36,703 nt of DNA from a virus, in the IMG/VR virus record IMGVR_UViG_3300025601_000056, positions 1 to 36,703 of that record. The stretch is one strand, 5' to 3'. The translations under genes were made by a program, and so were the position numbers. Shown piece after piece: positions 6,244 through 35,534 of the stretch (position 1 is its first letter; each line of letters opens with the position of its first letter). The notes beneath the pieces are model-generated. The model was given only the letters and a program-made list of their open reading frames with translations. It had not been told where the DNA came from and searched no databases.

Positions 6244-7200
6244 CTATTTCACTGGCTGTATGCGCCACACTGCCGCAGACTGTTTGCGTTTAGGTATGGA
6301 TATGTCAGTAAGGCATTGGCATTCTGTGTAGCCGCAGATCACTGGCTTGACCACTTGCTTGTAGCCGTCTCGAATCCATCCTGAGTAGCCGCCTTGTTCG
6401 CAGTTGGCTCTACGGTAACTGCCGTCGAACTGTACAAATGCGGATTTTAGTCCTATGTCGCACTCCCAGCGACCGAAGTTGTTTTCTCTGCGATTGATCA
6501 GTTCCACAGTCCAACTCTTGCCGGGAAATGCCGGTTCGCCCTGACGATCCAGAATGGCAAAGTTTCTGGGAACAATGGGGTCCACCCAAAGATTTCTATA
6601 CACAGCAGGATTGTCCAGGAACCAGCGTTGCTGCTGTTCAGTATAGGTGGGAGTTTGACCCGATCCCCAATCTACTATCATAGTGGGTATAACTGAGACG
6701 TCAGTTTCGTTCAACAGTTGATCGTAGATGATCATGCAGTGATCCCAGTAGTCGGGATCCATCATTAGATTCACCGTGACCTGTTTGACATACTGATTTG
6801 CTTGATTTGCTCGTTCGACCCAACCGTCGTCGTGAAACGCAGGATGATAACTGAGTCCTAGATTTTCTACATCTAGTCCGTCCCAGTATTCTGCCTTACG
6901 AACACCGTTGCTACTGACGCCAGCATAGTGTTTAGGGCTGGCAAATTTTTTAAGTAACTTTGGTAAAAAAGGACTTACTGTAGGCTCGCCCCCTGATATA
7001 ACCAAATGTATCATGGGGTGCTGTTCTAATATGCTGTCGATAAAGTATTCCGCTTCACTCCAGTCGTAGTGATGATTCTTGCCCTCGTGTAGATATTTTG
7101 GGCAATAGCGGCAATGATTTGTACAGATGTTGTTGATTATCCAAGTTAGATAAAAACGTTTGTAGTCACTTACTACTTGGTTGTATGGGCATGGTTGCAT
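6244..7200 (-). CDS. Radical SAM enzyme with SPASM/twitch-like C-terminal cysteines (318 aa)
   Basis: The radical SAM signature CxxxCxxC is C26-TNH-C30-RY-C33, and GGEP (70-73) is the conserved SAM-binding motif. A C-terminal set C247, C267, C289, C294 and C296 resembles an auxiliary Fe-S cluster domain of the SPASM/twitch type, which in known families modifies peptides or proteins (sulfatase maturation, RiPP maturation). No substrate peptide or partner was seen next to it. ATG 7200 has TAAATA exactly 5 nt upstream and no Shine-Dalgarno sequence. It lies between an oxygenase-like gene and a collagen-like fibre, which suggests a post-translational modification role; a nucleotide or cofactor substrate is an alternative. 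Confidence 0.88.
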   Translation of the reverse strand: MQPCPYNQVVSDYKRFYLTWIINNICTNHCRYCPKYLHEGKNHHYDWSEAEYFIDSILEQHPMIHLVISGGEPTVSPFLPKLLKKFASPKHYAGVSSNGVRKAEYWDGLDVENLGLSYHPAFHDDGWVERANQANQYVKQVTVNLMMDPDYWDHCMIIYDQLLNETDVSVIPTMIVDWGSGQTPTYTEQQQRWFLDNPAVYRNLWVDPIVPRNFAILDRQGEPAFPGKSWTVELINRRENNFGRWECDIGLKSAFVQFDGSYRRANCEQGGYSGWIRDGYKQVVKPVICGYTECQCLTDISIPKRKQSAAVWRIQPVK

Positions 7201-7205
7201 AGATC

Positions 7206-7211
7206 TATTTA
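7206..7211 (-). promoter_or_regulatory. Late-promoter core TAAATA 5 nt before the ATG
   Basis: On the - strand the sequence reads TAAATA-GATCT-ATG. This matches the core of the T4 late promoter TATAAATA. With T4 geometry, transcription would start at or next to the AUG of the radical SAM gene. Confidence 0.6.
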
Positions 7212-7227
7212 CTTAACCGATCTGGGC

Positions 7228-7233
7228 TAAATA
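7228..7233 (+). promoter_or_regulatory. Late-promoter-like core for the fibre gene
   Basis: GCTAAATA ends at 7233, giving a leader of about 28 nt before ATG 7267. The leader contains TAGGA shortly before the start. Confidence 0.45.
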
Positions 7234-7266
7234 GCGTATAGTGGAATCTACGTTCTAGGATTAGAA

Positions 7267-10200
7267 ATGACAAGCAATATCGACCCAACACAAATTAACC
7301 CAGAGTTTCCTGTATCAGGACAAAATAACAGTTCGCAGGGATTTAGAGACAATTTTCAAGGCACTGTACAAGGCCTAACTGCTGCCCGTGACGAAATTAC
7401 AGGGCTGCAACGTAATGCCACAGTAAAAGGCACTACCAGCACAACTAGAGTAGAAAACGCAGACGACTTTCAAAACTACATGGTAGGTGCAGAACTGCGT
7501 GAAGTACAACTAGCAGATTGGACACAACGCTTGTTCAATCATGGCCCGCAAAGCGGCACAGTTGCTCTAAGTTACTACGAAGCACCGATACATTATGTAG
7601 AAGCGTTTCCCAACGTTACCTTAGGATTAAAACAGTTTCCAGTAGACCAATATGCCACAATGCGTGTGTATGTTTCAGTTCCGTCTACTGCTACTGTTGT
7701 GACATTCAGCGATGTCAGCAGTATTACCAACGTGACTAGATTGGTAAACTTCAACAGCGTCAGCGGCGAAATGACGTTTGAGACCAGCGGCGTATTTGGT
7801 ATTGAAATTTCAAGCCGCACTGGTGTTGATTTTGAATTCTTTGACCTTGACCGTAGGAAAATTGATGCTAGTGTGCAAACAGTTAGTGCTGTGGGTATCA
7901 GCGGTAACTTCAACGATCTAAACAGTATTCCAACTGCAAGCGAATCCCTAAAAGGTATCATGCAAGTTGGAGACGGCTTATTGGTAAATGCCGGTGTTGT
8001 CAGTGTTGATACTGCCACAATACAGGTTGCGGTTTCTACAGCAACCACAGCATCAGTAGGTGTTATTCAAGTTGGAAATGGGTTGACTATTACTCCAGCA
8101 GGATTACTAAGTGCTAATCAGTATACTTTACCCACTGCTACAACTGCTACACTAGGCGGTGTTATTATCGGCGCTGGCCTTGCAGTAGATTCCACAGGAA
8201 CATTGAGTGTAGTAGACGGTATTACAGGTGCTACAGGTCTAATCGGTGCTACTGGTCCAACGGGTGCTACTGGAGTGCAGGGCCCAGACGGATTAGGTGT
8301 CGGAGTTTATTCAAACAGTTCTATTACAATTGGCACTGGTGCAAAAGTGTTTGTTTTAGAAAGTTTAGCCGTTTGGTCAATTGGACAGCGAGTTCGTGCT
8401 AAAAACTATGCCAGCGGTATTCCTGTTAACGAATGGTTAGAAGGACAAATTACTGCATATGACACTACTGGTTCTACAGTTACAGTATATGTTGACCGTA
8501 CACAGGGTACTGCTACAACATTAACAACTTGGTTTGTTAACGTAGCAGGCGAAGTTGGTTCAACTGGACCACAAGGCGCCACAGGCGGACCTGGTGCAAC
8601 AGGCAGCGGTGCTACTGGTGCTACTGGTGAAAGAGGACCGTTGGGTATTCAAGGATATCAAGGTGCTACTGGTGCAGGTGTACAAGGTACTACAGGTGCA
8701 ACTGGTCCTCAAGGCCCCATTGGCGGACCTGGATCAACCGGATCAACTGGTCCTGTAGGAGCAACTGGTTTAATTGGATCTACAGGTCCACAAGGAGAAA
8801 CAGGCGATCCAGGCGGAGCAACTGGTCCACAAGGCGCTACTGGTGCGGCTGGCGCCACAGGTCCTGCCGGACCAGATGGTGCTACTGGTGCAGGTTCAAC
8901 AGGTGCTACTGGTTTACCGGGTGCTACAGGTGCGCAAGGACCTGCAGGGAATGTTGGTGCTACAGGTGCAGGTGCTACTGGCGCTACGGGAGAAGCAGGA
9001 CCTGCAGGTGCAACAGGACTATATGTAACTAGTGCTACTATTAGTGGCACTAATCTAGTTATTATTTTAAATGATTCGACTGAAATTGATGCAGGCCCTG
9101 TTTCAGGTGCTACAGGAGCAGATGGTGGCATAGGTGCTACAGGAGCAGATGGTGGCATAGGTATCGACGGCGCTACTGGTGCTACTGGCCCACAAGGTGC
9201 AATTGGTGCTACTGGCAGTTACGGGTCAACAGGCGCCACTGGTCCACAAGGAGAAATAGGTGCCACCGGCGCAGACTCAATAGTTCCTGGCACAACTGGT
9301 GCTACTGGACCAGCAGGTTCCACAGGACCTAGTGGAGTTGGATCAACTGGTGCAGACGGTGCTACAGGCGCTACAGGTGTTCAAGGCGCAACTGGTCCTG
9401 CAGGCGCAACTGGCGCTGGCGCAACTGGTGCTATTGGCAATGATGGTGCCACTGGAGCACAAGGTGCCACAGGATTATACGTTACTACTGCTACTGTAAC
9501 CGGAACAAATTTGTTAATTACATTAAATGATAGTAGTGAAATTAATGCCGGTAATATTGTTGGTCCTACAGGCGCTACTGGTGCGCAAGGAAATCAAGGC
9601 AATGACGGAGCAACGGGTGTACAAGGTGCAACTGGCGAAGGCGCTACTGGTGCAACAGGTCCTACAGGTGCTACTGGGACAATCGGAGTTGATGGTGCAA
9701 CAGGTGCAACAGGACCTTCAGGTGCAACAGGTGCAGACTCTACGGTGCCAGGGTCTACTGGTGTACAAGGTGCAACAGGTCCAATAGGACCACTCGGACC
9801 AGAAGGTGCTACTGGTGCAACTGGTGCTACAGGAGAAACTGGCGCAACCGGTGTACAAGGTCCGCAAGGTATTGATGGAAGTGCTGCTGCCCAAGGTGCT
9901 ACAGGCGCCACTGGACTATATATTACAACTGCTTCAATAACAGGAACAGAATTGTTGTTAGTATTAAATGATGCTAGCGAAATTAACGTTGGATCAGTAA
10001 TTGGTGCTACTGGACTTACAGGCTCAGAAGGTGCAACTGGTGCTGGTGTACAAGGTACCACAGGTGCTACTGGTCCAACAGGTGCAACAGGTGCATTAGG
10101 AACTACAGGTGCTACTGGTCCGCAAGGTGCAACTGGACCTACAGGTGATTTAGGCGCAACCGGTGCTACTGGTCAGGGTGCTACAGGGGCGCAAGGAAAT

Positions 10201-11577
10201 CCGGGAGCAGAAGGTGCTACAGGCGCAACAGGTGCTACTGGACCTGCAGGTGCTACTGGAGTTGGCGCCACAGGTGCTACAGGTCCTCAAGGACAATATG
10301 TTACTACTGCCAGTGTTACAGGTACTACATTAATACTTACATTAAATGATAGTAGTACAGTAGTAGTTGATGGATCTATACAAGGTGCGACTGGGCCAAT
10401 TGGACCTAATGGTGGAAATGGCGGAACAGGCGCAACAGGCGCAACAGGTGCTGACGGAGCGACTGGTCCAATAGGCGCTACCGGCGTCGAAGGTCCAGTA
10501 GGTCCGACAGGTCCGGCACTACTTGCTTTTAGTAGTTCGACTAATACTGTTAGCACAGGAACTAAAACATTTACAGATTTATACGATGTTAACGGTACTC
10601 CAAATGTATCGGGATACACCGCAGGTATGCGAATTAGAGCAGGAGCAATTAATTCTCAACCATTTAGTTATATGGACGGACAAGTCGAAAGTGTAAATTT
10701 AGCCACTACGTCGTTGATTTTTATATCGGATTACGCTCAAGGAACGCTAGGACTTTCGAGTAGTTCTTGGGCAATTAGCATAGCAGGCGAAAACGGACTT
10801 ATAGGCCAGCCAGGTCTCGGGTATGTTCTTTGGGCATATGATAATCCTGTTAGTTTAGCAACTATAGGTTCTGATACTGAGGTACAGTTTGCCGTTGAAA
10901 GTGAAGAGCATGCATATACTACTGGGCAAAGAATAAGAGCAATTGTCAAAGAACGTGCATTTTTAAGTTACTTGGAAGGAACATTAGTTGCAAGAACAGG
11001 TACAGACTGGACCATATTAATTGACGAGTATTTTTTAAGTCCAGACGAAGATATTGTTACATTTAGCACTTGGACCTTTGCAGTTGCAGGCAGTAGACCT
11101 ACAAGTACTGCTACTCAATTATATTTGTCAGGTGTTACTATTGCAACAAATACTTTTAGTGGAACGCTAGTAGTTGCAGGTGGAGTAGGAATTGGAGAAA
11201 ATTTATTTGTTAAGAGTTTACAAGGCGTCGGAAACCGAGCAGTGTATTCAAGCCAAGAGGGCGAAGTTACTAATAGTTCCTCAGATGCAAATTTAAAAAC
11301 AAATGTACATCCGATTGATCAAGGACTTACTGCTACACTTGCATTAAATTCAATTAAGTTTAATTGGATAGATACTGAAAGATTTGGTTCACAGACTGAA
11401 ATCGGCTTTCTTGCACAACAAGTACAGCAAGTTGTTCCTGAAGTAGTCGGAACAAATAGTGACGGCACATTAAGTGTGGACTATCCAAAACTAACTGCGG
11501 TGTTAACAAAGTCTATTCAAGAACTGTCTGCTAAAGTTGAAGAATTAGAAGCAAGATTATCTGCCGCTGGTTTATGA
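7267..11577 (+). CDS. Collagen-like tail fibre/virion protein with S74 chaperone domain (1436 aa)
   Basis: The N-terminus ([20 protein letters not shown], then a coiled region) looks like a virion-attachment domain of aquatic T4-like phages. Residues about 320-1080 are mainly Gly-X-Y repeats dominated by GAT, GPQ and GPT, which should form a triple helix. Four related beta inserts of the pattern [10 protein letters not shown]...LNDSSEI interrupt it. A second module type occurs three times (from about 350, 1085 and 1200), with pattern GxRIRA...WxxxVAG. The C-terminus is a Peptidase_S74 intramolecular chaperone: SDANLKTN starts at S1339, the expected self-cleavage site, and a coiled coil ([20 protein letters not shown]) closes the trimer. 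It is probably a trimeric host-recognition fibre. It was not matched to T4 gp37 or gp12. Confidence 0.88.
8220..10520 (+). repeat. Degenerate tandem repeat encoding Gly-Ala-Thr collagen triplets
   Basis: The DNA repeats GGTGCTACTGGT-like units with many synonymous changes (GGCGCAACA, GGTGCTACA), keeping the protein repeat while lowering DNA identity. The array is broken by four copies of a beta insert at about 9019, 9474, 9913 and 10294. Confidence 0.9.
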
Positions 11578-11591
11578 AAATTTAATCAGGG

Positions 11592-11620
11592 TTGACATAG
11601 TGTTGTAAATATGCTACAAT
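11592..11620 (+). promoter_or_regulatory. Sigma70-type promoter for the glycosyltransferase pair
   Basis: TTGACA at 11592-11597, a 17-nt spacer, and TACAAT at 11615-11620. The expected start is near 11627, only a few bases before ATG 11631, so the mRNA would have almost no leader. It is of early type although it lies downstream of a structural gene. Confidence 0.8.
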
Positions 11621-13982: not shown

Positions 13983-14494
13983 TACTGTACCTTTCTTGCT
14001 TCTAAAAATAATTCCGCAACTTGATCAAGGGCTTTCTGATAGTCCTTGGTTACACGAACAGTAATGCCACCTACAGATTCCCATTGTTGGCAGTTATCAA
14101 TTCTATCGTCAACAAGAATATCACTTGACTTGCAGTGATTTTGTTTGTCTTCTGAGTAAGGTCCAAAGTGAACAGGAATGTCAGGATATCTCTCTTGTGC
14201 CCAAAGTACTTTATCCCAAAACGCCCAGTGTACATCGTTGTAATGAGGAATAGCAGTTAGGAATAATAGTTCATATCCTGCTTCATCTCTAAATTGACGA
14301 GCAAGATTAACCATGTCGTCTGCTTGTGGCATTTTTGGTAACTGTCGAAATATGCGTTGATTATTACGGATTTTTTCCCAATCACTAGGAGAGTACATAG
14401 CAGTAGGATCATCAAGCCTGTAACCGATAAAGTCTCCAACGCCTGCGTTCCAATCGGCTACTACACCGTCCATGTCTAAATAAATTGTATTCAT
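13982..14494 (-). CDS. HAD-family 5'(3')-deoxyribonucleotidase-like phosphatase (170 aa)
   Basis: HAD motif I is D7-M-D9-G-V-V, motif II is T80 in FLTAIP, a Lys near 117-122 fits motif III, and DD at 129-130 in ILVDDRIDN is motif IV. The size and the DMDGVVADW opening fit the C-type deoxyribonucleotidases (NT5C family) often carried by T4-like phages. The expected reaction is removal of phosphate from (deoxy)nucleoside monophosphates, which adjusts nucleotide pools. TATAAT lies 5 nt before the ATG. It is co-transcribed with the hydrolase. Confidence 0.85.
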   Translation of the reverse strand: MNTIYLDMDGVVADWNAGVGDFIGYRLDDPTAMYSPSDWEKIRNNQRIFRQLPKMPQADDMVNLARQFRDEAGYELLFLTAIPHYNDVHWAFWDKVLWAQERYPDIPVHFGPYSEDKQNHCKSSDILVDDRIDNCQQWESVGGITVRVTKDYQKALDQVAELFLEARKVQ

Positions 14495-14499
14495 GCTAT

Positions 14500-14505
14500 A
14501 TTATA
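14500..14505 (-). promoter_or_regulatory. TATAAT box 5 nt before the nucleotidase ATG
   Basis: On the - strand the sequence reads TATAAATG-T-TATAAT-ATAGC-ATG. The hexamer occupies the same place as the TAAATA core of other late genes but has a sigma70 -10 sequence. There is no clear -35. Confidence 0.4.
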
Positions 14506-14509
14506 ACAT

Positions 14510-15196
14510 TTATATACTCATTTGTCTATCGTGTAATTTACCAATCGCATCCATGAGTTTGCCTACTTGTCCGTCGTTACGCAGTGCTTTGAATACTAGA
14601 TTAGGGACACCAAATTCACCTGCTTGTGCAAGACCAGCCTTACGATACATTTTTAACATGTCTTTAATATTGCGACACATTTCTAAATTTCCCGTAGCAA
14701 TTGCACCGTCAATTGCTCGTTCCCAGATAGCAAATACTCGTTCTACTTCTGGTTTGTCATATTTGACTGCATCTTGAGTAGGACGATTAATCCATTCACC
14801 TTTGATAACAGAGTAACTGCTACTAACTGGAGGATGGTCTACATCTTCTACATATAGTTCAACAGGAACACCTGCAATATTAATATCATGTTGTTGTGCC
14901 CAGAGTTTGCGTTTTGCATCAAACAATTCGTCTACTGCAACGTCGCAGTTAACTTGACTGTAGGGAACAATTAGGTGTAGGTCTAAATCGCTATGTTTGG
15001 TATAGTTGTAATTAACTTGACTACCTGAAACTACTAAATTTAACAAAGTAACATCTAAATCTAAAAATGCATAAAATTCTTTTGCAATTTTTAATAGTGC
15101 AACTCTTACATTAGATCGTAAGTGATCGTCCTTCCATAATACAGGATTTAAGGTGCTGTGGATCTCGATAGGATCAGTATATTCAAACATGCTCAT
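14510..15196 (-). CDS. Pol-beta-fold nucleotidyltransferase (228 aa)
   Basis: The signature GS (58-59) followed by HSDLDLHL with D70, D72 and H74, and a third acidic residue E113 in GVPVELYVED, fit the nucleotidyltransferase superfamily (GSx(9-12)DxD). The C-terminal half is helical (ERVFAIWERAIDGAIATGNL and a basic helix). Substrate unknown: such proteins can modify RNA, proteins or small molecules. Start ATG 15196 was chosen; a TTG at 15226 would run through the late-promoter core. Similar genes occur in aquatic T4-like phages as far as I recall. Confidence 0.82.
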   Translation of the reverse strand: MSMFEYTDPIEIHSTLNPVLWKDDHLRSNVRVALLKIAKEFYAFLDLDVTLLNLVVSGSQVNYNYTKHSDLDLHLIVPYSQVNCDVAVDELFDAKRKLWAQQHDINIAGVPVELYVEDVDHPPVSSSYSVIKGEWINRPTQDAVKYDKPEVERVFAIWERAIDGAIATGNLEMCRNIKDMLKMYRKAGLAQAGEFGVPNLVFKALRNDGQVGKLMDAIGKLHDRQMSI

Positions 15197-15201
15197 ATCT
15201 T

Positions 15202-15207
15202 TATTTA
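15202..15207 (-). promoter_or_regulatory. Late-promoter core TAAATA 5 nt before the ATG
   Basis: The - strand reads AAATAAATA-AAGAT-ATG for the nucleotidyltransferase gene. It lies back to back with the core of the divergent AlgH-like gene within 20 bp. Confidence 0.6.
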
Positions 15208-15214
15208 TTTCCGG

Positions 15215-15220
15215 TAAATA
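15215..15220 (+). promoter_or_regulatory. Late-promoter core TAAATA 5 nt before the ATG
   Basis: The + strand reads GGTAAATA-TTTCA-ATG for the AlgH-like gene. No Shine-Dalgarno sequence is present. Confidence 0.6.
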
Positions 15221-15225
15221 TTTCA

Positions 15226-15786
15226 ATGATTGAAAAGAAAGACCTAACCGGACAAATTATTGCATCTCGCCCAAATAACGCAGATACTTATTTTTCCAAA
15301 TCTGTTATCATAGTAGGAAAACACAGTCCGACAGGATCGTGGGGTCTCGTAGTCAATAAACCTACCGAAAAAATTACATTAGATCATATAATGCGGCAAA
15401 CTGGAATACTTTCTAAAAAAGAAGATAAGGTCTATATAGGAGGTCCGGTAGACACTAATAGAGTATATATTGTACATACCTTAGATTGGACTGCACCTAC
15501 TACAATGCAAATTACCAAAGATATAGGTGTTACTACTGACATATCTATACTGGCCGCAATTGCAGGTAACGAAGGGCCTGCATTATTTAGAACATGCTTG
15601 GGTATATGCCAATGGGCACCTAAACAACTTGACGGAGAATATTTTGGTCAAGAGCCATGGAGTCCTGCCAATAGTTGGGTAGATGCTCCTGCTACAATAG
15701 AGGCAGTGTTTCATTTAAACGAAGAAGATCAATGGATACACGGAATTGATTATATTACCAAAAATAATATATCTAATTGGTTTTAG
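15226..15786 (+). CDS. AlgH/YqgE (UPF0301, DUF179) family protein (186 aa)
   Basis: The protein opens LTGQIIASRPNNADTYFSKS, then SVIIVGKHSPTGSWGLVVNK and a GGPVD...VYIVHT segment. These match the pattern of bacterial AlgH/YqgE proteins (short N-terminal strand, SVI...H...G.GLVxNxP, GGPV). The full family length of about 185 aa is kept. The biochemical role of the bacterial family is not settled. Here it is an isolated + strand gene inside a - strand block. Its stop overlaps the gp41 stop by 4 nt. The late-type core 5 nt before ATG suggests late expression. Confidence 0.85.
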   Translation: MIEKKDLTGQIIASRPNNADTYFSKSVIIVGKHSPTGSWGLVVNKPTEKITLDHIMRQTGILSKKEDKVYIGGPVDTNRVYIVHTLDWTAPTTMQITKDIGVTTDISILAAIAGNEGPALFRTCLGICQWAPKQLDGEYFGQEPWSPANSWVDAPATIEAVFHLNEEDQWIHGIDYITKNNISNWF

Positions 15787-17231: not shown

Positions 17232-18216
17232 CTAAGTTTTCTAGTTTTTTCTTTAGTAGTTGTATTTTTATCTTGTTCGTTTCTTTGTAGTTAATAATTG
17301 TAAGTAGTGTATATAGCCTACCATATTTCTTAACTGCATCGGCACAATCTTTTATATCTGATTCCCACGGCGGAATACTAACCGCCCATTCATTTTCTAA
17401 TGCCGCTGTTATTATTTTTGCCCCGGGTTTATCTCTGTCCGGTACTACAATAACTGTTTTACCCAACATTTTTATTCTTGCTATTTGTGTTGCATTAGGT
17501 TCGTTATGCATAATTGCCACTCCGTCTACTGCAATGGCATCAAACTGTCCTTCTACTACTAATACATATTCTCTATCATCTTGTTGCGGATCTACGTTGA
17601 ATACATATCCGGCCTGTGCATCAGTTAGGTATTTTGGTTTACCTTCAGTTATCTTTCTTCCAGTCCATCCTACTGTCTCTTGATTGCAGTAGAAGGGCAA
17701 AAGTAATCGATCTCTATAACCATTTTCTGGACTCCAATGCCAGTTGTACCAATCTAATTCCATACCTCGATTAACTATATAATCAGCACAGGCAATAACA
17801 TCCGAATTAGGATCTTCTTCTAACCATTCAATTATCGGCTTGCTATCTTTAGGAAGCAATCTTGGCTCTAGGTTAAAATTTATAACTGGGGTTTTTACTA
17901 CCTCTGCGTCTTCTTTAGATCGCAATGCCTCTAGATTTAATTTGGTTATTTCGTCATTGGCCATACCCATCCAACGAAACAGGTCTTTTGTATTCTTACT
18001 TAGTAGTCTGCCCGGGCTCCATCCTGCTTTAAAATTACAATTGAAGCAGTGATATTGAAATCCTTCTTCGTTAAAAAGAACCCCGCCACGTTTTCTAGTG
18101 TCTGTTTTTTCGCCTCTATTGTGACAGCAGACTGCATTAAAACTTGTCCAACCGCTAGGAGTAGCCTTTCTTTTACCAGGTAAGAAAGTTTGTACAGTTG
18201 ATTGTATGAGGTTCAT
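17224..18216 (-). CDS. gp61: DNA primase, T4 gp61-like (330 aa)
   Basis: The N-terminal zinc-ribbon has C30/C31-H32 and C57-x2-C60 (YHCFNCNFKAGW). The Toprim catalytic motifs are E222 in VVEGQFDAIAV and D260-R-D262 in VVPDRDKPG. This is the size and domain order of gp61-type primases, which make RNA primers with gp41. AAAATA, one mismatch from the late core, lies 5 nt before the ATG, and no Shine-Dalgarno sequence is visible. Confidence 0.92.
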   Translation of the reverse strand: MNLIQSTVQTFLPGKRKATPSGWTSFNAVCCHNRGEKTDTRKRGGVLFNEEGFQYHCFNCNFKAGWSPGRLLSKNTKDLFRWMGMANDEITKLNLEALRSKEDAEVVKTPVINFNLEPRLLPKDSKPIIEWLEEDPNSDVIACADYIVNRGMELDWYNWHWSPENGYRDRLLLPFYCNQETVGWTGRKITEGKPKYLTDAQAGYVFNVDPQQDDREYVLVVEGQFDAIAVDGVAIMHNEPNATQIARIKMLGKTVIVVPDRDKPGAKIITAALENEWAVSIPPWESDIKDCADAVKKYGRLYTLLTIINYKETNKIKIQLLKKKLENLDE

Positions 18217-18221
18217 GCATA

Positions 18222-18227
18222 TATTTT
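18222..18227 (-). promoter_or_regulatory. Degenerate late-type core AAAATA 5 nt before the primase ATG
   Basis: The - strand reads GTTAAAATA-TATGC-ATG. One mismatch to TAAATA at the same spacing as the exact matches elsewhere in the window. Confidence 0.4.
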
Positions 18228-19326
18228 AACTTCTATACAATACTTTGTCAACTTTTCCGTTTGGATAATATGCAGTTCCTGGAGTAGGATTTCCGGGCAA
18301 TTGTGGACTGTAATGATTATAAGTTCCGTCAGTATCCGGAATCCATTTTATTCTAACATCGCTCCAACTGCCAACAGCATTAGCATAATCGACTCCAGTA
18401 AATCCAGTATATGTTTTTGTTTCCAAAGTTACATAATTTCCAAACGAACCGGGACTATTATCTAGTGTTGCTTGAATTAGCACTGTGCCTGTAAAATTCT
18501 CAAGGTAAAGAGCGGCTGTTGTTGTTTGTGTTAGTTCTGGATATGCTCTTAAATTGCCTGTGTAAAATTCGTATAAATTAGTCTGCTCATTTGCAAATCT
18601 TTGAAAACTTACGACAGAACCACTCTCTTTTAATGTAGGATATAAATCGTGTGTTAAGTTTACCGTACCGTCTATTCCGTAGTAGGTATTCGAGTATGAT
18701 GGTAATTTGCCGCCGTCGCTGTCTGTTAGAGTAATGCCGTATTTGTAATATCCGCTTGATAAAGATCGGGTGTCGTTTTCGTTTAAAGTTAATAAGGCTA
18801 TGCCTCGAGTTGCTGTTGTGACACCGTCATCTAAAACTTCTAATTGTTTTTCTAAAACTAGTCGTTGTTCGTTAGCATTAAACATGCTGAATACAAAATT
18901 TTGATTGAATGCTATTGATGTACCCGAACTGATTGTAGTTAATATAGGTGATTGAAATTGCTCAGTATCTAGGTTGTAAACAGGATTTAGGTTGGCAATA
19001 ATAACGCTATCTGCATTTACAGAAGAAACATAAGTTCCCGGAAGCACATTATTACTGTTAACTGTCATTCCTGCAACAATGCCAGTTGTGCTATCTAAAA
19101 ATATTTCTGTGCTTGATGTTGAAATTTCCTGGGTAGTTGCGCCAGCGGCTTTGATTCTAACAGTTTTCTGGTCAGAATTTTTAACTTGAATTTGAACTTT
19201 ATTTTTAAGTCCTTTTTGTATTTTTAGTTCACGCTGGTACATTGTTCTATCTATCCTTGTATTATTGTCCACATCTAATTGCACTTGCATTAAATTGGAG
19301 TATAAATAAACTGGTAATTTTTGCAT
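18226..19326 (-). CDS. Probable virion structural protein, beta-rich (366 aa)
   Basis: The sequence is Thr/Ser/Asn/Tyr-rich and predicted all-beta, with SSTEIFLDSTTGIVAGMTVN as a structural-repeat-like strand pair. The segment LYLENFTGTVLIQATLDNSP up to SWSDVRIKWIP looks like a beta-sandwich (discoidin/CBM-like) seen in phage tail proteins. No catalytic motif was found. TAAATA lies 5 nt before the ATG, in line with late expression. A baseplate or tail-fibre location is the best guess. Confidence 0.68.
   Translation of the reverse strand: MQKLPVYLYSNLMQVQLDVDNNTRIDRTMYQRELKIQKGLKNKVQIQVKNSDQKTVRIKAAGATTQEISTSSTEIFLDSTTGIVAGMTVNSNNVLPGTYVSSVNADSVIIANLNPVYNLDTEQFQSPILTTISSGTSIAFNQNFVFSMFNANEQRLVLEKQLEVLDDGVTTATRGIALLTLNENDTRSLSSGYYKYGITLTDSDGGKLPSYSNTYYGIDGTVNLTHDLYPTLKESGSVVSFQRFANEQTNLYEFYTGNLRAYPELTQTTTAALYLENFTGTVLIQATLDNSPGSFGNYVTLETKTYTGFTGVDYANAVGSWSDVRIKWIPDTDGTYNHYSPQLPGNPTPGTAYYPNGKVDKVLYRS
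19301..19308 (+). promoter_or_regulatory. Full T4-type late promoter TATAAATA
   Basis: An exact TATAAATA on the + strand, inside the divergent structural gene, 34 nt before the ATG at 19343. It is the only full 8-mer match noted upstream of a gene. Confidence 0.6.
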
Positions 19327-19331
19327 ACATA

Positions 19332-19337
19332 TATTTA
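19332..19337 (-). promoter_or_regulatory. Late-promoter core TAAATA 5 nt before the ATG
   Basis: The - strand reads AAATAAATA-TATGT-ATG for the 366-aa structural gene. Confidence 0.6.
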
Positions 19338-19342
19338 TTTTA

Positions 19343-19726
19343 ATGACCAGTAAGGACGACTTTCAGAAAAACTTTCCGTTTATAACCGGTGTAAAAACAT
19401 CGGTTAACGAATATATCGGAATAGTAATCAACTACGACCTCAATGTTACCAGCATCTATAGTTATGCTGATATACGTTCTGAGGAAGAAAGAAAATTATT
19501 TCTAGAATTAGGAGAAACATGGTGGTGGGAATCCAATAGAAAAATTCCAATCAACATATTCTTAAAACAGGATATGATAGACTTTAGACCATATGTTAAA
19601 ACATTTAACAGTAAAGATGTTGAAATAATATTTGGACCAATTGTAAATTTAGGTGAAATTGCAGAAAAACGAGTTAAACGTAAAAGCATTCAACTGGTTA
19701 GAAACGTTAAGAAAAACCGTAACTAA
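19343..19726 (+). CDS. Conserved hypothetical basic protein (127 aa)
   Basis: The product contains NEYIGIVINYDLNVTSIYSY, LELGETWWWESNRKIPINIF and KDVEIIFGPIVNL, and ends with a strongly basic tail (KRVKRKSIQLVRNVKKNRN) that could bind nucleic acid. I recall similar proteins in T4-like phages next to replication genes, with no known role. It is a lone + strand gene with an exact TATAAATA upstream. Its last 20 nt overlap the 3' end of the convergent mini-DnaE gene. Confidence 0.75.
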   Translation: MTSKDDFQKNFPFITGVKTSVNEYIGIVINYDLNVTSIYSYADIRSEEERKLFLELGETWWWESNRKIPINIFLKQDMIDFRPYVKTFNSKDVEIIFGPIVNLGEIAEKRVKRKSIQLVRNVKKNRN

Positions 19727-21742: not shown

Positions 21743-21743
21743 A

Positions 21744-27811: not shown

Positions 27812-29236
27812 TTATTTTGCCAAGCCTGCTAACCGTTTGATTTCTTCAAATTGTTGAGCATCCATTTGTTGTTGCTCAAGTGCTTGTCCTTTTTGCGACA
27901 ACTGCCCAACAAACTGTTCTGCTACTGCTGCGGCGTGATCGCCGAACTGCTTTTTAATATGAGTAATAACTCCTGTTTCACCTTTTGGAAACTTGCCAGT
28001 AGAAGCATCGTAAAATGATTTTACCACTTCTGCTACTTCACGCATATTTGGTCTTTCTGGAGTAGGCTCTTTGTTTTCCATTCCTTCTTGTTCATCATAT
28101 GGTGCTTCGTCTACTACTTCACTATCCTCATCTTCGGCATCACGATCAGTAAGGTCGTCTGCCCAATTTTCAAATTGAGAAAACTCATCAACTTGTTGAA
28201 TTTCATCTTCTTCAGATTCTTGAACTTCTTCTACATGTGCAACATATGCTTCTAAATCAACTTCGCCTGTTTCTTGCATAATGCTGTGGATCAAAGGAAA
28301 ATACTGCGTCAAGTCTTCTTTAAAGTTTTTAACGGTAAATTTACTTTTGTAATCTTCCATTGTTGCTTGGTCCATTACAAATCCTTCATCATTAGCAGGA
28401 TTGATTGTTTCGACCCATTGTTGATAAAAACCTTGTTTTGAAATTCCTTCGACTGTTTTACGAAGATTGTTAAGTTTTAGTTGACTACGCTCTAAAATTT
28501 CATTTACTTCTTCGTTCATACCGTCATGATTTCCAACATGGCGTTTAAATGCAGTTAATTGGGCAATTTGTTCACTCATTCCAATTATTGAATTACCTAC
28601 ATCATCGTACGGTCGGCCACCATTTGCAACATGTCGTTGCATTGCTTTAGCACCTGCTAAATGCACAAACGGATATTTAAAACGTTCGCCTGCTTCATTT
28701 TCAATAAACAATGCATTGATATTTCTACTTCTTGCGCCTCGTTGATTTTCATCAACTGTTTTAGAGTGACGTACTCGAAGTAATGTATTTTCTAATTTAC
28801 GGAAACTGGTCTTTGGACCTCCATACATTCCGTTAGACTCATTCATATTATTTTCCTTTGTTCCATTTTGTGCTAGATATTGAAAATCATTTTTGTTAAG
28901 ATTGCCTTTGGCAATATCTCTAGTATCAAATCTTAACATTCTACGTTTGGCAAAAAATCTCATTTCTTTTAAAAAATCATACCACATACTCATAGAAATA
29001 GCATCTGCATCTTCTACAAGATCGTATCCGTAGAATATTTTTAGTGATCCTAATTCATTTAGAGAAACACTAACACGACCTAGATTATTACCTTCTACAG
29101 TAAAATCAAAGTCAAAGAATCTTGCGTCTTTAGGAGCGCTTGTCACTGCACCTGATTCGTCTCCCATCTCTAAATTAGAGAATCTACTACGAACTTTGTC
29201 AAAAACGTCTTGAGCAATTATTTCAATGATATTCAT
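27812..29236 (-). CDS. Probable virion/prohead-associated protein (474 aa)
   Basis: Start ATG 29236 was chosen (MNIIEIIAQDVFDKVRSRFS); the in-frame extension upstream runs through the late-promoter core and into gp17. The middle has YGGPKTSFRKLENTLLRVRH and FKYPFVHLAGAKAMQRHVAN. Then comes a very acidic stretch (VEEVQESEEDEIQQVDEFSQ, DAEDEDSEVVDE). It ends in a helix KGQALEQQQMDAQQFEEIKR followed by LAGLAK. I recall similar proteins next to gp17 in aquatic T4-like phages. The acidic tract and terminal LAG helix suggest an internal head or scaffold component. Function is not proven. Confidence 0.72.
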   Translation of the reverse strand: MNIIEIIAQDVFDKVRSRFSNLEMGDESGAVTSAPKDARFFDFDFTVEGNNLGRVSVSLNELGSLKIFYGYDLVEDADAISMSMWYDFLKEMRFFAKRRMLRFDTRDIAKGNLNKNDFQYLAQNGTKENNMNESNGMYGGPKTSFRKLENTLLRVRHSKTVDENQRGARSRNINALFIENEAGERFKYPFVHLAGAKAMQRHVANGGRPYDDVGNSIIGMSEQIAQLTAFKRHVGNHDGMNEEVNEILERSQLKLNNLRKTVEGISKQGFYQQWVETINPANDEGFVMDQATMEDYKSKFTVKNFKEDLTQYFPLIHSIMQETGEVDLEAYVAHVEEVQESEEDEIQQVDEFSQFENWADDLTDRDAEDEDSEVVDEAPYDEQEGMENKEPTPERPNMREVAEVVKSFYDASTGKFPKGETGVITHIKKQFGDHAAAVAEQFVGQLSQKGQALEQQQMDAQQFEEIKRLAGLAK

Positions 29237-29241
29237 AAGTC

Positions 29242-29247
29242 TATTTA
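29242..29247 (-). promoter_or_regulatory. Late-promoter core TAAATA 5 nt before the ATG
   Basis: The - strand reads GCATAAATA-GACTT-ATG for the 474-aa gene. The core lies in the 16-nt gap after the gp17 stop. Confidence 0.62.
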
Positions 29248-29252
29248 TGCGT

Positions 29253-30836
29253 TTAACTGATGTAAATAGGCAGCGGAAGGTCCATATCTTCCATTGCACG
29301 ATCTTCCATTATTTTGTCGTATACTGTTGTATCCCAATCTCCTAGCATAACCAACATTCTGGTTGACAATAACATAGCAGACACTAGGTCGTCTGTTTCG
29401 TTAGTTTTGCCTTCGAAACTAGCGCCTTTTGCCACATATGTTTTCATTTCGCTAATTAATGCTTTGCTGTGAACAGTAAGTTTGTCAGTTTCAATAAGTT
29501 GTTTAAACTTAGCACATGCAGATATTTTAGATACGTTAGTAGTGTTAAAACCTCTACGGAAACGCCTAACATGTCCTTTCTTAATAGGTTCGCTTAGGAA
29601 CATGCCCGGAACAGTATCTTCCCCCATCTCATTAATTGCAACAATCGCGGCTTCCCCAACTGCATTATTTTCTACAGAATAGTAAATTTGACCTAATGAT
29701 CTTCCGCTGCCACAATGTTGTTCAATGTATTTGCAAATATCTCGAAGTATCCTAACTTGCTGTTGAATGGGAGTAGTATTGTGGCTCCACTCTCCTACTT
29801 GTTCTAATGCAGGCAATTCGACAATTTGTATGGCGGCTGGGTCGCCACCTGTGCCTAAACTAGGATCTAGTGCAACCGTATAAATTGCTTGAGGATTAAT
29901 TTTTTTATACCAGCGGACTTGCCCCATTTTAACAACCGGCTCTTTGCCCTCCATAGTGGCTAATTTAAGGCTGTTAATTAGTGTTTCATCAAAGATAATA
30001 AATTCACATTCATGCTCTCGTCGAAATCTTTCTTCGCCTACTCGACTTTTTTCTTCATCTGCCCACTTTTTGTCTCTGTCAGGATGCTGGCTCCATACTG
30101 CTTTAAAAGGACTGAAACCGTTTTTACCTAACGCAGTGTCGTTCCCAAATTCGTCAAATCTCTTGTTGGCTTCTTTCCAAATGCTGGCAAATTGATCTTC
30201 GTCTGAGTTAGGAGTAGAAGTGATAATTGCCTTACCGCCAGTTGCAAGAGTAGGCGAAATTGAAGTCCAGAATTCTGTGGCTATGTTAGGTTCGACAAAC
30301 GCAAACTCATCGCAGTATAGTAACGATACAGACATACCTCGACCGGTAGTTTCTGTTGTAGTTTGTGCAACAATACGACTACCGTTGTCGAATTCAATAC
30401 TCTGTTTGTTATAACTTGTAACTCCTGCTCTAATCCAATCGGGACAAGTTTCGTATGCATATCGCAATCGTTGCATAATTTCTTGAGCACCTGTATATTT
30501 GTGCGCACTAATTAAAATAGTACTATCTGGAACAAACATTCCGTACCAAAGTAAGTATCCAACAGCAGTAGTAGTTTTGCCCATTTGGCGTCCTAACATA
30601 TTCACACTAAATCGGTGATCGTTATAACTTTGTAAAAGGTCATCTTGATAATCAAATGCTTGATATTGAATTTTACCTTTAGTAGGATGTTGAATATAAA
30701 AATAGTTTCTAAGAAAATGTGCAGCACCTGTTTTAGGGTCTTGACACTTTATTAAATTTGCAATATCATCCTCAGAAAATCTCTGGGTAATATGCGCTGA
30801 TTTAATCAGTTTGCTTTCTAAGTTTTTTGTAGCCAT
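29253..30836 (-). CDS. gp17: Terminase large subunit, T4 gp17-like (527 aa)
   Basis: The ATPase domain has Walker A GRQMGKTT (82-89), Walker B LLYCDEFAF (D176, E177) and the coupling motif STPN (207-210). The RNase H-like nuclease domain starts with VALDPSLGTGGDP (D324) and has later acidic residues in YYSVENNAVGEA and NETDDLVSAM. It cuts and pumps DNA into the prohead through the portal. TAAATA lies 5 nt before the ATG, and a terminator is just upstream. Confidence 0.96.
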   Translation of the reverse strand: MATKNLESKLIKSAHITQRFSEDDIANLIKCQDPKTGAAHFLRNYFYIQHPTKGKIQYQAFDYQDDLLQSYNDHRFSVNMLGRQMGKTTTAVGYLLWYGMFVPDSTILISAHKYTGAQEIMQRLRYAYETCPDWIRAGVTSYNKQSIEFDNGSRIVAQTTTETTGRGMSVSLLYCDEFAFVEPNIATEFWTSISPTLATGGKAIITSTPNSDEDQFASIWKEANKRFDEFGNDTALGKNGFSPFKAVWSQHPDRDKKWADEEKSRVGEERFRREHECEFIIFDETLINSLKLATMEGKEPVVKMGQVRWYKKINPQAIYTVALDPSLGTGGDPAAIQIVELPALEQVGEWSHNTTPIQQQVRILRDICKYIEQHCGSGRSLGQIYYSVENNAVGEAAIVAINEMGEDTVPGMFLSEPIKKGHVRRFRRGFNTTNVSKISACAKFKQLIETDKLTVHSKALISEMKTYVAKGASFEGKTNETDDLVSAMLLSTRMLVMLGDWDTTVYDKIMEDRAMEDMDLPLPIYIS

Positions 30837-30841
30837 GCTAT

Positions 30842-30847
30842 TATTTA
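30842..30847 (-). promoter_or_regulatory. Late-promoter core TAAATA 5 nt before the gp17 ATG
   Basis: The - strand reads TTAAATA-ATAGC-ATG. It starts 3 nt after the T-run of the preceding terminator. Confidence 0.65.
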
Positions 30848-30850
30848 ATG

Positions 30851-30878
30851 AAAAAAATAGGCTCCGAAGAGCCTATTT
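30851..30878 (-). terminator. Intrinsic terminator with UUCG tetraloop
   Basis: A perfect 10-bp stem AAATAGGCTC/GAGCCTATTT has the loop TTCG on the - strand, followed by seven T. It lies between the 368-aa gene and gp17, so the two are separate transcription units. Confidence 0.92.
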
Positions 30879-30893
30879 GGTTAAACCATTTTA

Positions 30894-32000: not shown

Positions 32001-32011
32001 AATATTTTTCC

Positions 32012-32527
32012 TTATTCTCCTGAAGGGATTTGTTCCCCGCGAGCCTTGCGCTGCTGTTTTAATTCGTCACTAATTCCTTTTAAGAATTTAGTATTGTAGG
32101 CTTCACCGTAGTAATCGTCATGATTAGCATTAGTAGATTCTTTATATTCACTATCATCTAACAGAGCACCTTCTCTTTTTTCTACAGGTGTTTGGTATTC
32201 CTCACCCGGCTCTCCTGGATTTCTAACTACTAAACGCTGTGCGCTTATACCCATGTTAGAACTTATATATTCTGTTAGTTCTTGGGGAGTAGTTGGATAA
32301 CCTAACGACACTTCGTAAATATGCACTTCTTGATTTCTTAAAGTAGGAAAATCCAATGGAAGTTCTTGAATTGGTGTCTTACCTAATTTTTTAAATTCTG
32401 ATACACTAAACCGCTCAAGTAAGCCTTTTAACTTTGCCTCTGATGCAGTGTTGCATTCGTGTGCAACTTTAATTTTAAAGTTGTACTTTTTAACTGATTC
32501 TGTTAGATATTCTTTAAATGATCTCAT
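32012..32527 (-). CDS. Hypothetical protein with capsid-targeting-like N-terminus (171 aa)
   Basis: The N-terminus MRSFKEYLTESVKK resembles the capsid-targeting sequence of T4 internal head proteins (MKTYQEFI-type). The middle is an alpha/beta domain (QEVHIYEVSLGYPTTPQELT, EYISSNMGISAQRLVVRNPG), and the C-terminus is charged and probably disordered (KGISDELKQQRKARGEQIP). It may be an internal virion protein. It has a late-core match with a leader and TAGGAAC as ribosome-binding site. Confidence 0.7.
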   Translation of the reverse strand: MRSFKEYLTESVKKYNFKIKVAHECNTASEAKLKGLLERFSVSEFKKLGKTPIQELPLDFPTLRNQEVHIYEVSLGYPTTPQELTEYISSNMGISAQRLVVRNPGEPGEEYQTPVEKREGALLDDSEYKESTNANHDDYYGEAYNTKFLKGISDELKQQRKARGEQIPSGE

Positions 32528-32545
32528 GACGATGTTCCTATGCTG

Positions 32546-32551
32546 TATTTA
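32546..32551 (-). promoter_or_regulatory. Late-promoter core TAAATA with a leader
   Basis: The - strand reads GAAATAAATACAG, 18 nt before the ATG at 32527, leaving room for TAGGAAC as ribosome-binding site. It is the leadered kind of late promoter, and it overlaps the end of gp16. Confidence 0.55.
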
Positions 32552-33031: not shown

Positions 33032-33039
33032 AATATTAC

Positions 33040-33480
33040 TTATCGTCTCTTATTCGGATTGTGAAAAATATCATTTTCGCTTACAACACGAAATTTCATT
33101 CCGTATCGTTTACACCAAGCATTTGCTGCTTCCCATTTTGCCATGTTTTTAACGTACTGTGCTTGATTCATTGGATTTTTGCCTACGGCTTCTTTAACAG
33201 TTTGATTAATTGGTTTTATTTCAATTAATTCTGCATGTTTTCGCTGATTTTTATCAAGATATACAATTAAAAAATCTGGAACATAGACAGTATTTCTTCC
33301 AGTTAACGGATCTCTGTAAGGTATTTTGACCCCTTCGCTTGCCCATTCTACTACTGAAGGATTGTTATCGCAGAACATCATAAAAGTAAGTTCCCAACTT
33401 GATCTATAGATTGGATCCGATGCCCCTCTATACTTTTCAGGGTTTTTAATTTGATATCTTCCTTTGGCAGTATTTCTCAT
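33040..33480 (-). CDS. gp4: Head-completion nuclease, T4 gp4-like (146 aa)
   Basis: The protein has RSSWE with E30, then VPDF with D69, then ELIEIKP with E87 and K89: the PD-(D/E)xK nuclease layout of the TnsA-like fold and T4 gp4 (150 aa). gp4 finishes filled heads before tail joining. Start ATG 33480 overlaps the preceding stop (TAATG). It sits in the packaging cluster just before gp16. Confidence 0.88.
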   Translation of the reverse strand: MRNTAKGRYQIKNPEKYRGASDPIYRSSWELTFMMFCDNNPSVVEWASEGVKIPYRDPLTGRNTVYVPDFLIVYLDKNQRKHAELIEIKPINQTVKEAVGKNPMNQAQYVKNMAKWEAANAWCKRYGMKFRVVSENDIFHNPNKRR

Positions 33481-33851
33481 TAAGGTAAAATATTTCTTCT
33501 AACATTATCGACAGGTGCCACTGCCTGTTTTGAACCTAAAAAACTTGATTTAAATCTATTAAAATTTAAAACTTCGGCTACGATTGTACTTAGTTCAGTT
33601 TCGTTTAATGTTTTCATTGATTCGATCAAGGACATAGGGTTATATTTTTCACGAGTCGCTTGAACCATTATAGTGAGTGCAATTACTTCTGCACTTTCTG
33701 TAGTAAAGTTTCTAGATTCTAAAAATCCTATCATAGCAGTTAATGTGTTTTGATTTAATTCAATCGGAACATCATTATAATATTGAAAACTTTTTAGTGT
33801 AGCGTCGCTAGAAGACCCTGATTTGTTAGGTGCTGGTAAATTATTATACAT
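33480..33851 (-). CDS. Probable small virion protein (123 aa)
   Basis: After a polar N-terminus the protein is helical (QNTLTAMIGFLESRNFTTES, AEVIALTIMVQATREKYNPM, SLIESMKTLNETELSTIVAE) and ends with a basic stretch. No catalytic motif was seen. It is coupled to both neighbours, a tail-tube-like gene and gp4, so a structural or assembly role is likely. I recall similar genes in this position in other aquatic T4-like phages. Confidence 0.72.
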   Translation of the reverse strand: MYNNLPAPNKSGSSSDATLKSFQYYNDVPIELNQNTLTAMIGFLESRNFTTESAEVIALTIMVQATREKYNPMSLIESMKTLNETELSTIVAEVLNFNRFKSSFLGSKQAVAPVDNVRRNILP

Positions 33852-35523
33852 AATATGAAGTTGTTGTATCTTTGCCGTTGTTGTATACTCTACTCGGTTC
33901 TGTATTTAAATCAGGATTGCCTCCTACATTATAATAATTGTCAGGACTAGTTCCTAAATCTACATTTTCTGCAGATAATTGATTATTAGGATTTTCTGTT
34001 GCTGATGCATCAACAATTGCAATGTCAATCGTGCTGATATTTTGATTAACTATAACTAAATTTTGCTGCAATTTTGCAGGATCTGTATAACCTACTGCGT
34101 CAAGTTGACTGTATAATTCATCAACTGTATCTTGGTCGCCTTCAGATGTTGCTGATTGAATTTTTGGCATTATTTGATTTTTAATAATTGTATTTTCTGC
34201 AATTTGATTTTCGATTTCAACTGCAATACTCTGTTGTTGAGATTTTATAGCAGTCAACGATACTGAGTCAGTAGGTAACGCACTAGCCACAACTGGCTTA
34301 TTCTGTGCTGGAATTATTTTTTTAATTACATTGCCTATACCGTTGCCTATACTCTTAATGCCGTTACTAATGTCGCCGGCAACTTTTCCTAATGTGCCGC
34401 CGAATTGACTTAGTCCGTTGTTTGCAAGACCTGCATTAGATACATTACTACCTCCCTGAGTGTTTTTAGGAATTGCTTTAGTTGGAGATTCTCCTGGCAA
34501 TGAGGAGAGTGCTACTCCGGCAGGACTTGACCCGCCTAATGCTGCTGGTAATTTTCCAGTTCGAGCAACATCATTTAACATACCTAACCCTTCTGATAAT
34601 ATGCTAGATTTTGATACATTCTTAAGATTGCCTAATAGGTTTGTTGCGCCTCTTGCTGTTTTCAAAAGTCCGAAAGGACTTGCATCTCCGGCGCCGCCAA
34701 GCACTTCCCCTATACCCGGAATAACCCCACCAGGCCCAAATAGACTGTTATTTCCGCTACCGAATACACTTAACGGCCCTGGAACTGTATCATAGTGTAT
34801 TTCTGCAAATCCTCCGGGATCACCTATTTTGACCTGCCCTGTAGCGTATATAACTGTTTCGTAAACTACTGACATTCTATTTTCCAAAAGTTTACTTTGT
34901 GTCTGATCCATTTTATCATGTTGCCAATCGCTAATTAATGGATTAATTAATTTATATGCCGTAAATTGTTTTCTATTAAGTTGATAAATTTCGATTGATG
35001 AAAAGAACGGTTTTGTTTGGCCGGCATTTAAACCATAAGAAGTTGTTTCACCTATAGAGTTATTGCTTTTTTTATATTTTGTGTCTCCGAAACTAGGAGG
35101 AGTAGTTAACCCATTAACATTCTGTCCGTCTTTGAAATAATAGTTAAAATATGCTTTCCATAGACTATTAGTTGTATTATTATGATCGTCATGAAATACT
35201 ATAGACACTGGCTGATAATCTATTTTTGTTTGTATTTGTGTTTTACGATTATATTGATTTACAGTTTCGGTGTTAATCTTAAATTTAGGAAGGTCAATGT
35301 TTTTTACTAACAACCCAACGTCTTGCCCGTTTTTAACTTTGAATTCAGTTACTATTTGGTTACCGTTTGATTCAATATTAAAAATAACATAATACATGAA
35401 TCCTTGTTTAGGAGCAAGGCGATAAAAGTCGTCAACGTACAATCGACTAGCGTGTGCGTAGTCTTTTAATTGTGTCGGTGAATCAAACACCTGCCCTAAA
35501 AAATTAGTAAATGCATTAGCCAT
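33844..35523 (-). CDS. Tail-tube-like/baseplate protein with long C-terminal extension (559 aa)
   Basis: The first 220 residues, with LYVDDFYRLAPKQGFMYYVI, KNIDLPKFKINTETVNQYNR and QPVSIVFHDDHNNTTNSLWK, resemble the tail-tube fold shared by gp19, gp48 and gp54. A Gly/Ser/Pro-rich linker (about 225-410) and a coiled-coil region (SVSLTAIKSQQQSIAVEIEN, IAENTIIKNQIM) follow. It may be a tube-initiator or tape-associated protein, as gp48/gp54 are, but it is longer than those (T4 about 320-365 aa). TAAATA lies 5 nt before the ATG. It is separated from gp19 by a terminator. Confidence 0.75.
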   Translation of the reverse strand: MANAFTNFLGQVFDSPTQLKDYAHASRLYVDDFYRLAPKQGFMYYVIFNIESNGNQIVTEFKVKNGQDVGLLVKNIDLPKFKINTETVNQYNRKTQIQTKIDYQPVSIVFHDDHNNTTNSLWKAYFNYYFKDGQNVNGLTTPPSFGDTKYKKSNNSIGETTSYGLNAGQTKPFFSSIEIYQLNRKQFTAYKLINPLISDWQHDKMDQTQSKLLENRMSVVYETVIYATGQVKIGDPGGFAEIHYDTVPGPLSVFGSGNNSLFGPGGVIPGIGEVLGGAGDASPFGLLKTARGATNLLGNLKNVSKSSILSEGLGMLNDVARTGKLPAALGGSSPAGVALSSLPGESPTKAIPKNTQGGSNVSNAGLANNGLSQFGGTLGKVAGDISNGIKSIGNGIGNVIKKIIPAQNKPVVASALPTDSVSLTAIKSQQQSIAVEIENQIAENTIIKNQIMPKIQSATSEGDQDTVDELYSQLDAVGYTDPAKLQQNLVIVNQNISTIDIAIVDASATENPNNQLSAENVDLGTSPDNYYNVGGNPDLNTEPSRVYNNGKDTTTSYYV

Positions 35524-35528
35524 ATTAT

Positions 35529-35534
35529 TATTTA
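35529..35534 (-). promoter_or_regulatory. Late-promoter core TAAATA 5 nt before the ATG
   Basis: The - strand reads GGCTAAATA-ATAAT-ATG for the 559-aa gene. It begins 6 nt after the terminator hairpin. Confidence 0.65.

Follow-up and report, generated by a model that had tools for sequence, protein, structure and literature searches.

We analyzed a 36.7-kb linear IMG/VR virus record (IMGVR_UViG_3300025601_000056; 36,703 nucleotides, 60% A+T), here called the window, in which the hexamer TAAATA stands exactly five bases before the ATG of seven genes. This arrangement is real and it is widely conserved among related phages. Its best explanation, which we consider very probable on the strength of sequence comparisons, is that T4-type late promoters produce leaderless or near-leaderless mRNAs. 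TAAATA would be the core of such a promoter and would be recognized by a gp55-like sigma factor. When this box lies four to seven bases before the ATG, transcription would start on the A of AUG or at most about three bases away, and ribosomes would initiate on a leaderless or near-leaderless mRNA with no room for a Shine-Dalgarno (SD) sequence. A second set of genes would have the same box about 17 to 24 bases upstream, giving a leader of about 12 to 19 nt that bears an SD, and genes may switch from one mode to the other via the stretch between box and ATG.

The seven TAAATA-N5-ATG sites were found where the original prediction had placed them, six on the minus strand (ATGs at 7200, 15196, 19326, 29236, 30836 and 35523) and one on the plus strand (ATG at 15226). 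They precede a radical SAM gene (6244-7200, Pfam PF04055; site at 7198..7211), a gene at 14510-15196 (site at 15194..15207), an AlgH-like gene (15226-15786, PF02622; site at 15215..15228), a gene at 18226-19326 that weakly matches a virion structural family (E 6.5e-06; site at 19324..19337), a virion gene at 27812-29236 whose site (29234..29247) sits in the short gap after gp17, the terminase large subunit gene gp17 itself (29253-30836; site at 30834..30847), and a tail (tube-like) gene of 559 amino acids (33844-35523; site at 35521..35534). A PDB search with the tail gene gave no match at E 0.01. The sites at 15194..15207 and 15215..15228 form a back-to-back pair: the two divergent ATGs are 29 bp apart and both boxes lie within that interval. 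The label “nucleotidyltransferase”, which had been proposed for the gene starting at 15196, found no support, as this gene had no Pfam match and matched a single PHROG family (36119) of unknown function.

In dinucleotide shuffles of the whole window the pattern occurred 0.70 times on average and three times at most, and none of 100 shuffles reached seven. When the count was restricted to ATGs that lie within 40 codons of the beginning of crude open reading frames (ORFs), the seven sites compared with a mean of 0.10 and a maximum of one (200 shuffles). TAAATA itself is under-represented in the window (31 found versus 44 expected), and the excess of seven sites is therefore due to its placement.

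To place the window we compared its DNA and its terminase with other phages, and it fell among the jumbo T4-type phages. Of 2,509 records the best 60 were considered; the closest terminases in them were those of PA5oct and its kin (54% identity), Atu_ph07 (51%) and Phosso (48%), followed by Vibrio phage 2.275.O, GAP32 and CBB (about 42-43%). A scan with gp17 yielded 300 confirmed relatives. The best 80 were retained, and 12 underlying contigs, one of 353 kb, were fetched. Together with the window these contigs made up a set of 1,065,479 bases and 1,210 crude ORFs, in which each in-frame ATG within the first 40 codons was paired with an upstream TAAATA, d being the number of bases between box and ATG. 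Because all in-frame ATGs of the first 40 codons were used, no start was picked in advance. Dinucleotide shuffles, reversed patterns, one-mismatch variants and six control hexamers served as controls. For individual genes, homologues were taken from 68 of the 80 loci and from the 12 contigs, which stood in for the other 12 loci, and distinct 32-nt upstream sequences were counted; two of the loci (L001 and L002) are near-identical to the window.

Over the 13 contigs, the distance from TAAATA to ATG was bimodal, with 142 pairs at d = 4-7 (the close class), 23 at d = 8-16 and 68 at d = 17-24 (the far class), on a background of about 3.3 pairs per position. Three pairs lie at d = 0-3, and the close class has its main peak of 82 pairs at d = 5. 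As the original prediction had proposed, the spacing was also compared with shuffled sequence in the relatives; the 12 related contigs contained 75 pairs at d = 5, compared to a shuffle mean of 2.6 and a maximum of 11. When the pattern was counted anywhere in these 12 contigs, at gene starts or not, it was found 85 times versus 28 for the reversed control. The absolute constancy of spacing that had been claimed holds in the window, with all seven sites at d = 5, and does not extend to the relatives, where 17, 16 and 27 pairs occur at d = 4, 6 and 7. Since the spacing is not perfectly fixed in the relatives and d = 7 is found in 22 of 54 distinct gp17 upstreams, “leaderless or near-leaderless” is the safer wording.

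Could this distribution arise by chance in A/T-rich sequence, or as an artefact of start choice? The window is rich in A+T, and TAAATA contains a stop codon and could in this way mark ORF boundaries. The controls refute this explanation, to which we give practically no credence. Besides the dinucleotide shuffles, the core proved strict, as the best one-mismatch variant gave seven pairs at d = 5 versus 82, and only two of the six control hexamers had a strong peak, both of them overlapping TAAATA with a shift of one base. Furthermore, T4, Syn9 and CBB, which have a similar A+T content, had no pair at d = 5 at ORF starts by the same method.

Conservation is likewise seen gene by gene. The 140 close-class genes of the 13 contigs fall into 62 gene families, 37 of which have a member at d = 5, and the spacing from box to ATG stays while the surrounding sequence changes among relatives. 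The tail gene (ATG at 35523) has homologues with the box at d = 5-7 in all 35 distinct upstreams (d = 5 in 28), and the virion gene starting at 29236 in 45 of 46. For gp17 the box was at d = 4-7 in 43 of 54 distinct upstreams; in a marine clade it lies at d = 7 rather than 5. Smaller samples gave d = 5-6 in seven of seven for the structural gene starting at 19326, d = 5-6 in four of five for the AlgH-like gene and d = 6-7 in three of four for its divergent neighbor. Two homologues of the radical SAM gene were found, one with the box at d = 6 (contig G004) and one with no TAAATA (contig G001).

The two classes differ in their SD sequences. With a match threshold of at least four bases, 27 of the 140 close-class genes had an SD, compared to 22.2 in shuffles. 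For the far class the count was 47 of 60 genes, versus 22.0 in shuffles. The close class thus has no SD excess, as had been claimed. The two far-class examples named in the original prediction were also recovered, each with a purine-rich SD: on the minus strand, TAAATA-N21-ATG with AAGGAG precedes gp19 (35582-36229; 36227..36256) and TAAATA-N18-ATG with AGGA precedes a gene for a 171-amino-acid protein (32012-32527; 32525..32551). Homologues of gp19 had the box at d = 4-7 in none of 31 distinct upstreams. Homologues of the 171-amino-acid gene had it at d = 5-7 in 29 of 37 distinct upstreams and at d = 18-29 in the other eight, most of these with a visible SD. These homologues can be aligned at their protein starts (MRSFKEYL, MKTFKEYL). 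In the closer relatives, the preceding gene has the same end and the box comes after it. The change of mode in this gene therefore lies between box and ATG.

If transcription starts (+1) six bases after the box, leaders would be about 0-2 nt long at d = 5-7, and far-class leaders would measure about 12-19 nt. Implied leaders of about 3-11 nt showed no excess over background; presumably a leader of this size cannot accommodate an SD and yet exceeds what leaderless initiation allows. Initiation at the 5' AUG itself is suggested by N-terminal conservation and the lack of an SD.

The near-fixed distance of the close class to the ATG would also fit a signal acting in RNA, either an A/U-rich translation enhancer or a regulator site, within a longer leader whose start is farther upstream. 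Several observations argue against this, and we regard it as very unlikely. A terminator-like hairpin occurs within 60 nt upstream of 24 of the 140 close-class genes compared to 1.3 in shuffles, and the remainder from hairpin to ATG is 17-22 nt in 23 of these cases and 34 nt in one. In the window, an intrinsic terminator hairpin at 30854..30879 (minus strand) lies directly 5' of the gp17 box with 17 nt left to the ATG, and a second hairpin at 35544..35564 (minus strand), which the consensus terminator scan did not list, lies directly 5' of the tail-gene box with 20 nt left. If these hairpins stop incoming transcripts, the 5' ends of gp17 and of the tail gene would have to lie within the last 20 or so bases. 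The hairpin and box arrangement before gp17 was also present in seven of the 12 fetched contigs, and the hairpins differ among relatives while the layout of hairpin, box, five bases and ATG is kept (79 of 80 loci viewed). A divergent upstream neighbor was found for 53 of 134 close-class genes, compared to 146 of 836 genes in neither class and 11 of 54 in the far class, and in the back-to-back pair of the window only 29 bp separate the two ATGs. The same hexamer also occurs 17-24 bases upstream with an SD in between. Finally, the base before the ATG resembles that of a transcription start: pyrimidines make up 91% at this position in the 82 genes at d = 5, 49% in 547 box-less ATG genes and 66% in the 68 far-class pairs. 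A pyrimidine-A step is what would be expected at the ATG of the d = 5 genes if transcription starts on the A.

Start on the A is also consistent with the geometry of T4. A passage in the T4 review PMC2988020 places the first base of the 8-base T4 late promoter box at -13; the box then ends at -6, and at d = 5 the +1 would fall on the A of the ATG. This agrees with the original prediction, which had put the +1 on or beside the A of AUG. In T4, Syn9 and P-SSM2 together, a purine was found six bases after the box in 78% of 93 sites. A somewhat different possibility is a very short leader of 1-3 nt with SD-free initiation on a near-leaderless mRNA; it overlaps with our explanation and concerns the exact +1. 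The subclass at d = 7 (27 cases, 85% of which have A at -3) shows the consensus ACT before the ATG and may start three bases upstream. The main peak at d = 5 and the pyrimidine-A step at the ATG speak for start on the A of AUG, and we consider the short leader rather unlikely as a general account.

Promoter use by a T4-type late apparatus is consistent with the gene content of two relatives. Contigs G001 and G003 each encode a gp55-like late sigma factor (phrog_12791, E 5e-85 and 6e-84; phrog_234 also matches), and both carry d = 5 genes. The gp55 families gave no match in the five other IMG/VR contigs searched, all of which are shorter fragments, and the window was outside this search. Late timing would follow from the box and from the virion genes that it precedes.

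Not all observations favor leaderless transcription from late promoters. A +1 exactly six bases past the box misses the A of AUG at d = 4 and d = 7, and in the far class of this clade (96 sites) purines do not clearly peak where the +1 is predicted. This clade does not conserve the TA that stands ahead of TAAATA in T4 (the TATAAATA box). The T4-type gp45 family phrog_223 was not found in G001, G002, G003 or PA5oct and matched only HTVC008M, although a divergent clamp is possible. In G001, the largest contig, the unrestricted count was 17 versus 14 for the reversed control. Eleven of the 54 distinct gp17 upstreams have no box at d = 4-7, and among the 31 distinct upstreams of gp19 there are eight with TAAATA at d = 10-15, within the gap between the two classes. 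In the gp19 cases viewed the SD comes immediately after TAAATA, which may here be a stop codon ahead of the SD and not a promoter. Lastly, AUG is not clearly favored in the close class, as ATG, GTG and TTG numbered 82, 4 and 1 at d = 5 and 68, 2 and 5 at d = 17-24; an AUG-only start was dropped as a test of leaderlessness since it does not discriminate between these distances.

The original prediction had also listed two near matches at the same position, before a nucleotidase gene and before gp61. Both are present as sequence, and we read neither as a late promoter. On the minus strand, the nucleotidase gene (13982-14494) is preceded by TGTTATAAT-N5-ATG (14492..14508), which contains an extended -10 box of the sigma70 type. 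The nucleotidase mRNA is probably leaderless although its promoter would not be late-type. Its layout is repeated in G004, and TAAATA occurred at d = 4-7 in none of three distinct upstreams of its homologues. Over the 13 contigs, TGNTATAAT was found nine times at d = 5-6 and not once at d = 7-17, so leaderless starts would not be limited to the late promoter and sigma70-type genes may be leaderless too. The proposed leaderless class is supported by our data, though not as a purely late one. By eye, some TGNTATAAT boxes of relatives (G001 and G012) directly follow a hairpin.

The near match of gp61, AAAATA-N5-ATG (18214..18227, minus strand), was not counted as a promoter, since its AAAATA (18222-18227) overlaps the TAA stop codon (18226-18228) of the preceding gene and homologues had TAAATA at d = 4-7 in none of ten. 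Re-initiation inside operons after an upstream stop, with TAAATA being a stop codon plus A/T-rich sequence, would fit this gene. It is also possible for the 171-amino-acid gene in relatives, where the box by eye overlaps the end of the preceding gene. As an explanation of the close class it is extremely unlikely, because it is inapplicable to genes that follow a terminator or have a divergent upstream neighbor.

Is leaderless late transcription a trait of all T4-type phages? This idea was rejected, given the absence of d = 5 pairs from T4, Syn9 and CBB. At ORF starts, PA5oct and Atu_ph07 had two pairs each (shuffle means 1.4 and 1.2) and P-SSM2 had four (mean 0.66, largest shuffle 4). Pelagibacter phage HTVC008M, a separate case that does show the class, had 11 (mean 0.58, largest shuffle 4). 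Whole-record counts of the pattern and of its reversed control were 14 and 4 in HTVC008M, 10 and 5 in T4, 15 and 12 in PA5oct, 15 and 9 in Atu_ph07, 4 and 10 in CBB, 3 and 3 in Syn9, 6 and 6 in P-SSM2, 5 and 17 in RaK2, 3 and 2 in Phosso, and 3 and 3 in Vibrio phage 2.275.O.

Two divergent genes of HTVC008M likewise share back-to-back boxes. Homologues of one of them were found at 44 IMG/VR loci, of which 35 were examined and 32 had an ATG, with 22 distinct upstreams: 13 at d = 5, five at d = 6, three at d = 28-31 and one (locus L277) at d = 5 only when the next ATG is taken. L278, L280, L281 and L284 share the upstream of L277; in all five, no box precedes the ATG closest to the homologous start, and the ATG two codons on is at d = 5. 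The start nearest the homologous position is likely misplaced in this type. In the window, the protein start of the gene at 33040-33480 (minus strand) resembles by eye that of HTVC008M gene 18943-19440, and no close TAAATA box is found there.

We also searched nine records for translation factors. Ribosomal protein bS21 had matches in PA5oct, Atu_ph07 and HTVC008M and none in G001, G002, G003, CBB, Syn9 or P-SSM2. IF3-like genes were found in Atu_ph07 (NC_042013.1, 256-501) and CBB (NC_041878.1, 230744-231004), neither of which has a d = 5 excess; the other seven records, including G001, G002, G003 and HTVC008M, gave no IF3 match, with or without a d = 5 excess. As each factor is absent from phages both with and without the class, we draw no inference on either.

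Regarding hosts, four relatives of gp17 lie in genome contigs from bins named Betaproteobacteria, Rickettsiales (two) and Pelagibacter, and these assignments may be binning errors. Across the whole sequence of 61 genomes of the genus of the Pelagibacter bin, TGNTATAAT-N6-ATG occurred 111 times versus 36 for the reversed pattern, and the N12 spacing 64 times versus 47. This is a weak hint.

Two further features of the window were observed. At 7267-11577 (plus strand) is a gene for a protein of 1436 amino acids that contains collagen repeats as well as an S74 (endosialidase chaperone) domain at its C-terminus. At 19707-21766 (minus strand), four consecutive ORFs have TTG or GTG as the first start codon, and one of them matches a DNA polymerase family.

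If the proposed mechanism is correct, a sizeable group of aquatic viruses would use leaderless initiation for virion genes, those of the terminase and tail among them. It would offer a built-in comparison in which homologous genes, with the same box and in the same phage, have or do not have a leader. A natural experiment on the shortest leader that ribosomes accept would be provided by the rare leader lengths and by the change of mode in the 171-amino-acid gene. The spacing also provides a rule for calling starts, with L277 as a case where d = 5 is reached at the next in-frame ATG. It could be speculated, as a tentative idea that we do not favor, that open-water T4-type phages run two translation programs from one late promoter, one leaderless for the terminase, tail and other virion genes and one with SD leaders for others, that small insertions and deletions flip genes between them, and that the ribosome is tuned to 5'-AUG initiation late in infection, either through the host lineage or through phage factors like bS21.

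Leaderless phage mRNAs are known in kind; for T4-type late genes, no paper describing them was found in an open-licence library, most hits being judged from listings. For the phage AR9, PMC5312081 gives leader lengths of 26-491 nt, and phage transcripts are said there to be often leaderless. PMC12753301 concerns other pelagiphages, and PMC9004378 offers no more than a reference on leaderless gene finding. A similar gap in leader lengths to ours is described in a passage of PMC10986495 on Lactococcus cremoris, where leaders are bimodal and none is 4-14 nt long. Those are bacterial genes with mapped RNA ends, whereas ours are phage late genes with lengths predicted from the position of the box. 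Among the jumbo relatives, CBB and GAP32 have a predicted late motif with the same core (ATAAATA, as given in a section of PMC5259590), but CBB has no box at d = 4-7. The late promoters of T4 (gp55, gp33 and gp45) resemble the arrangement described here in that TAAATA takes the -10 place and a gp55-like factor is encoded by two relatives. They differ in that T4 boxes peak about 28 bases before the ATG, with none at d = 4-7, and in the leading TA of the T4 box. The closest parallel in kind is phiYS40 of Thermus thermophilus, most of whose middle and late mRNAs are leaderless according to a passage in the review PMC3594737. That phage has a Thermus host and shifts in IF2 and IF3 (same source), whereas the window and its relatives have a T4-type late box that would be read by a gp55-like sigma factor.

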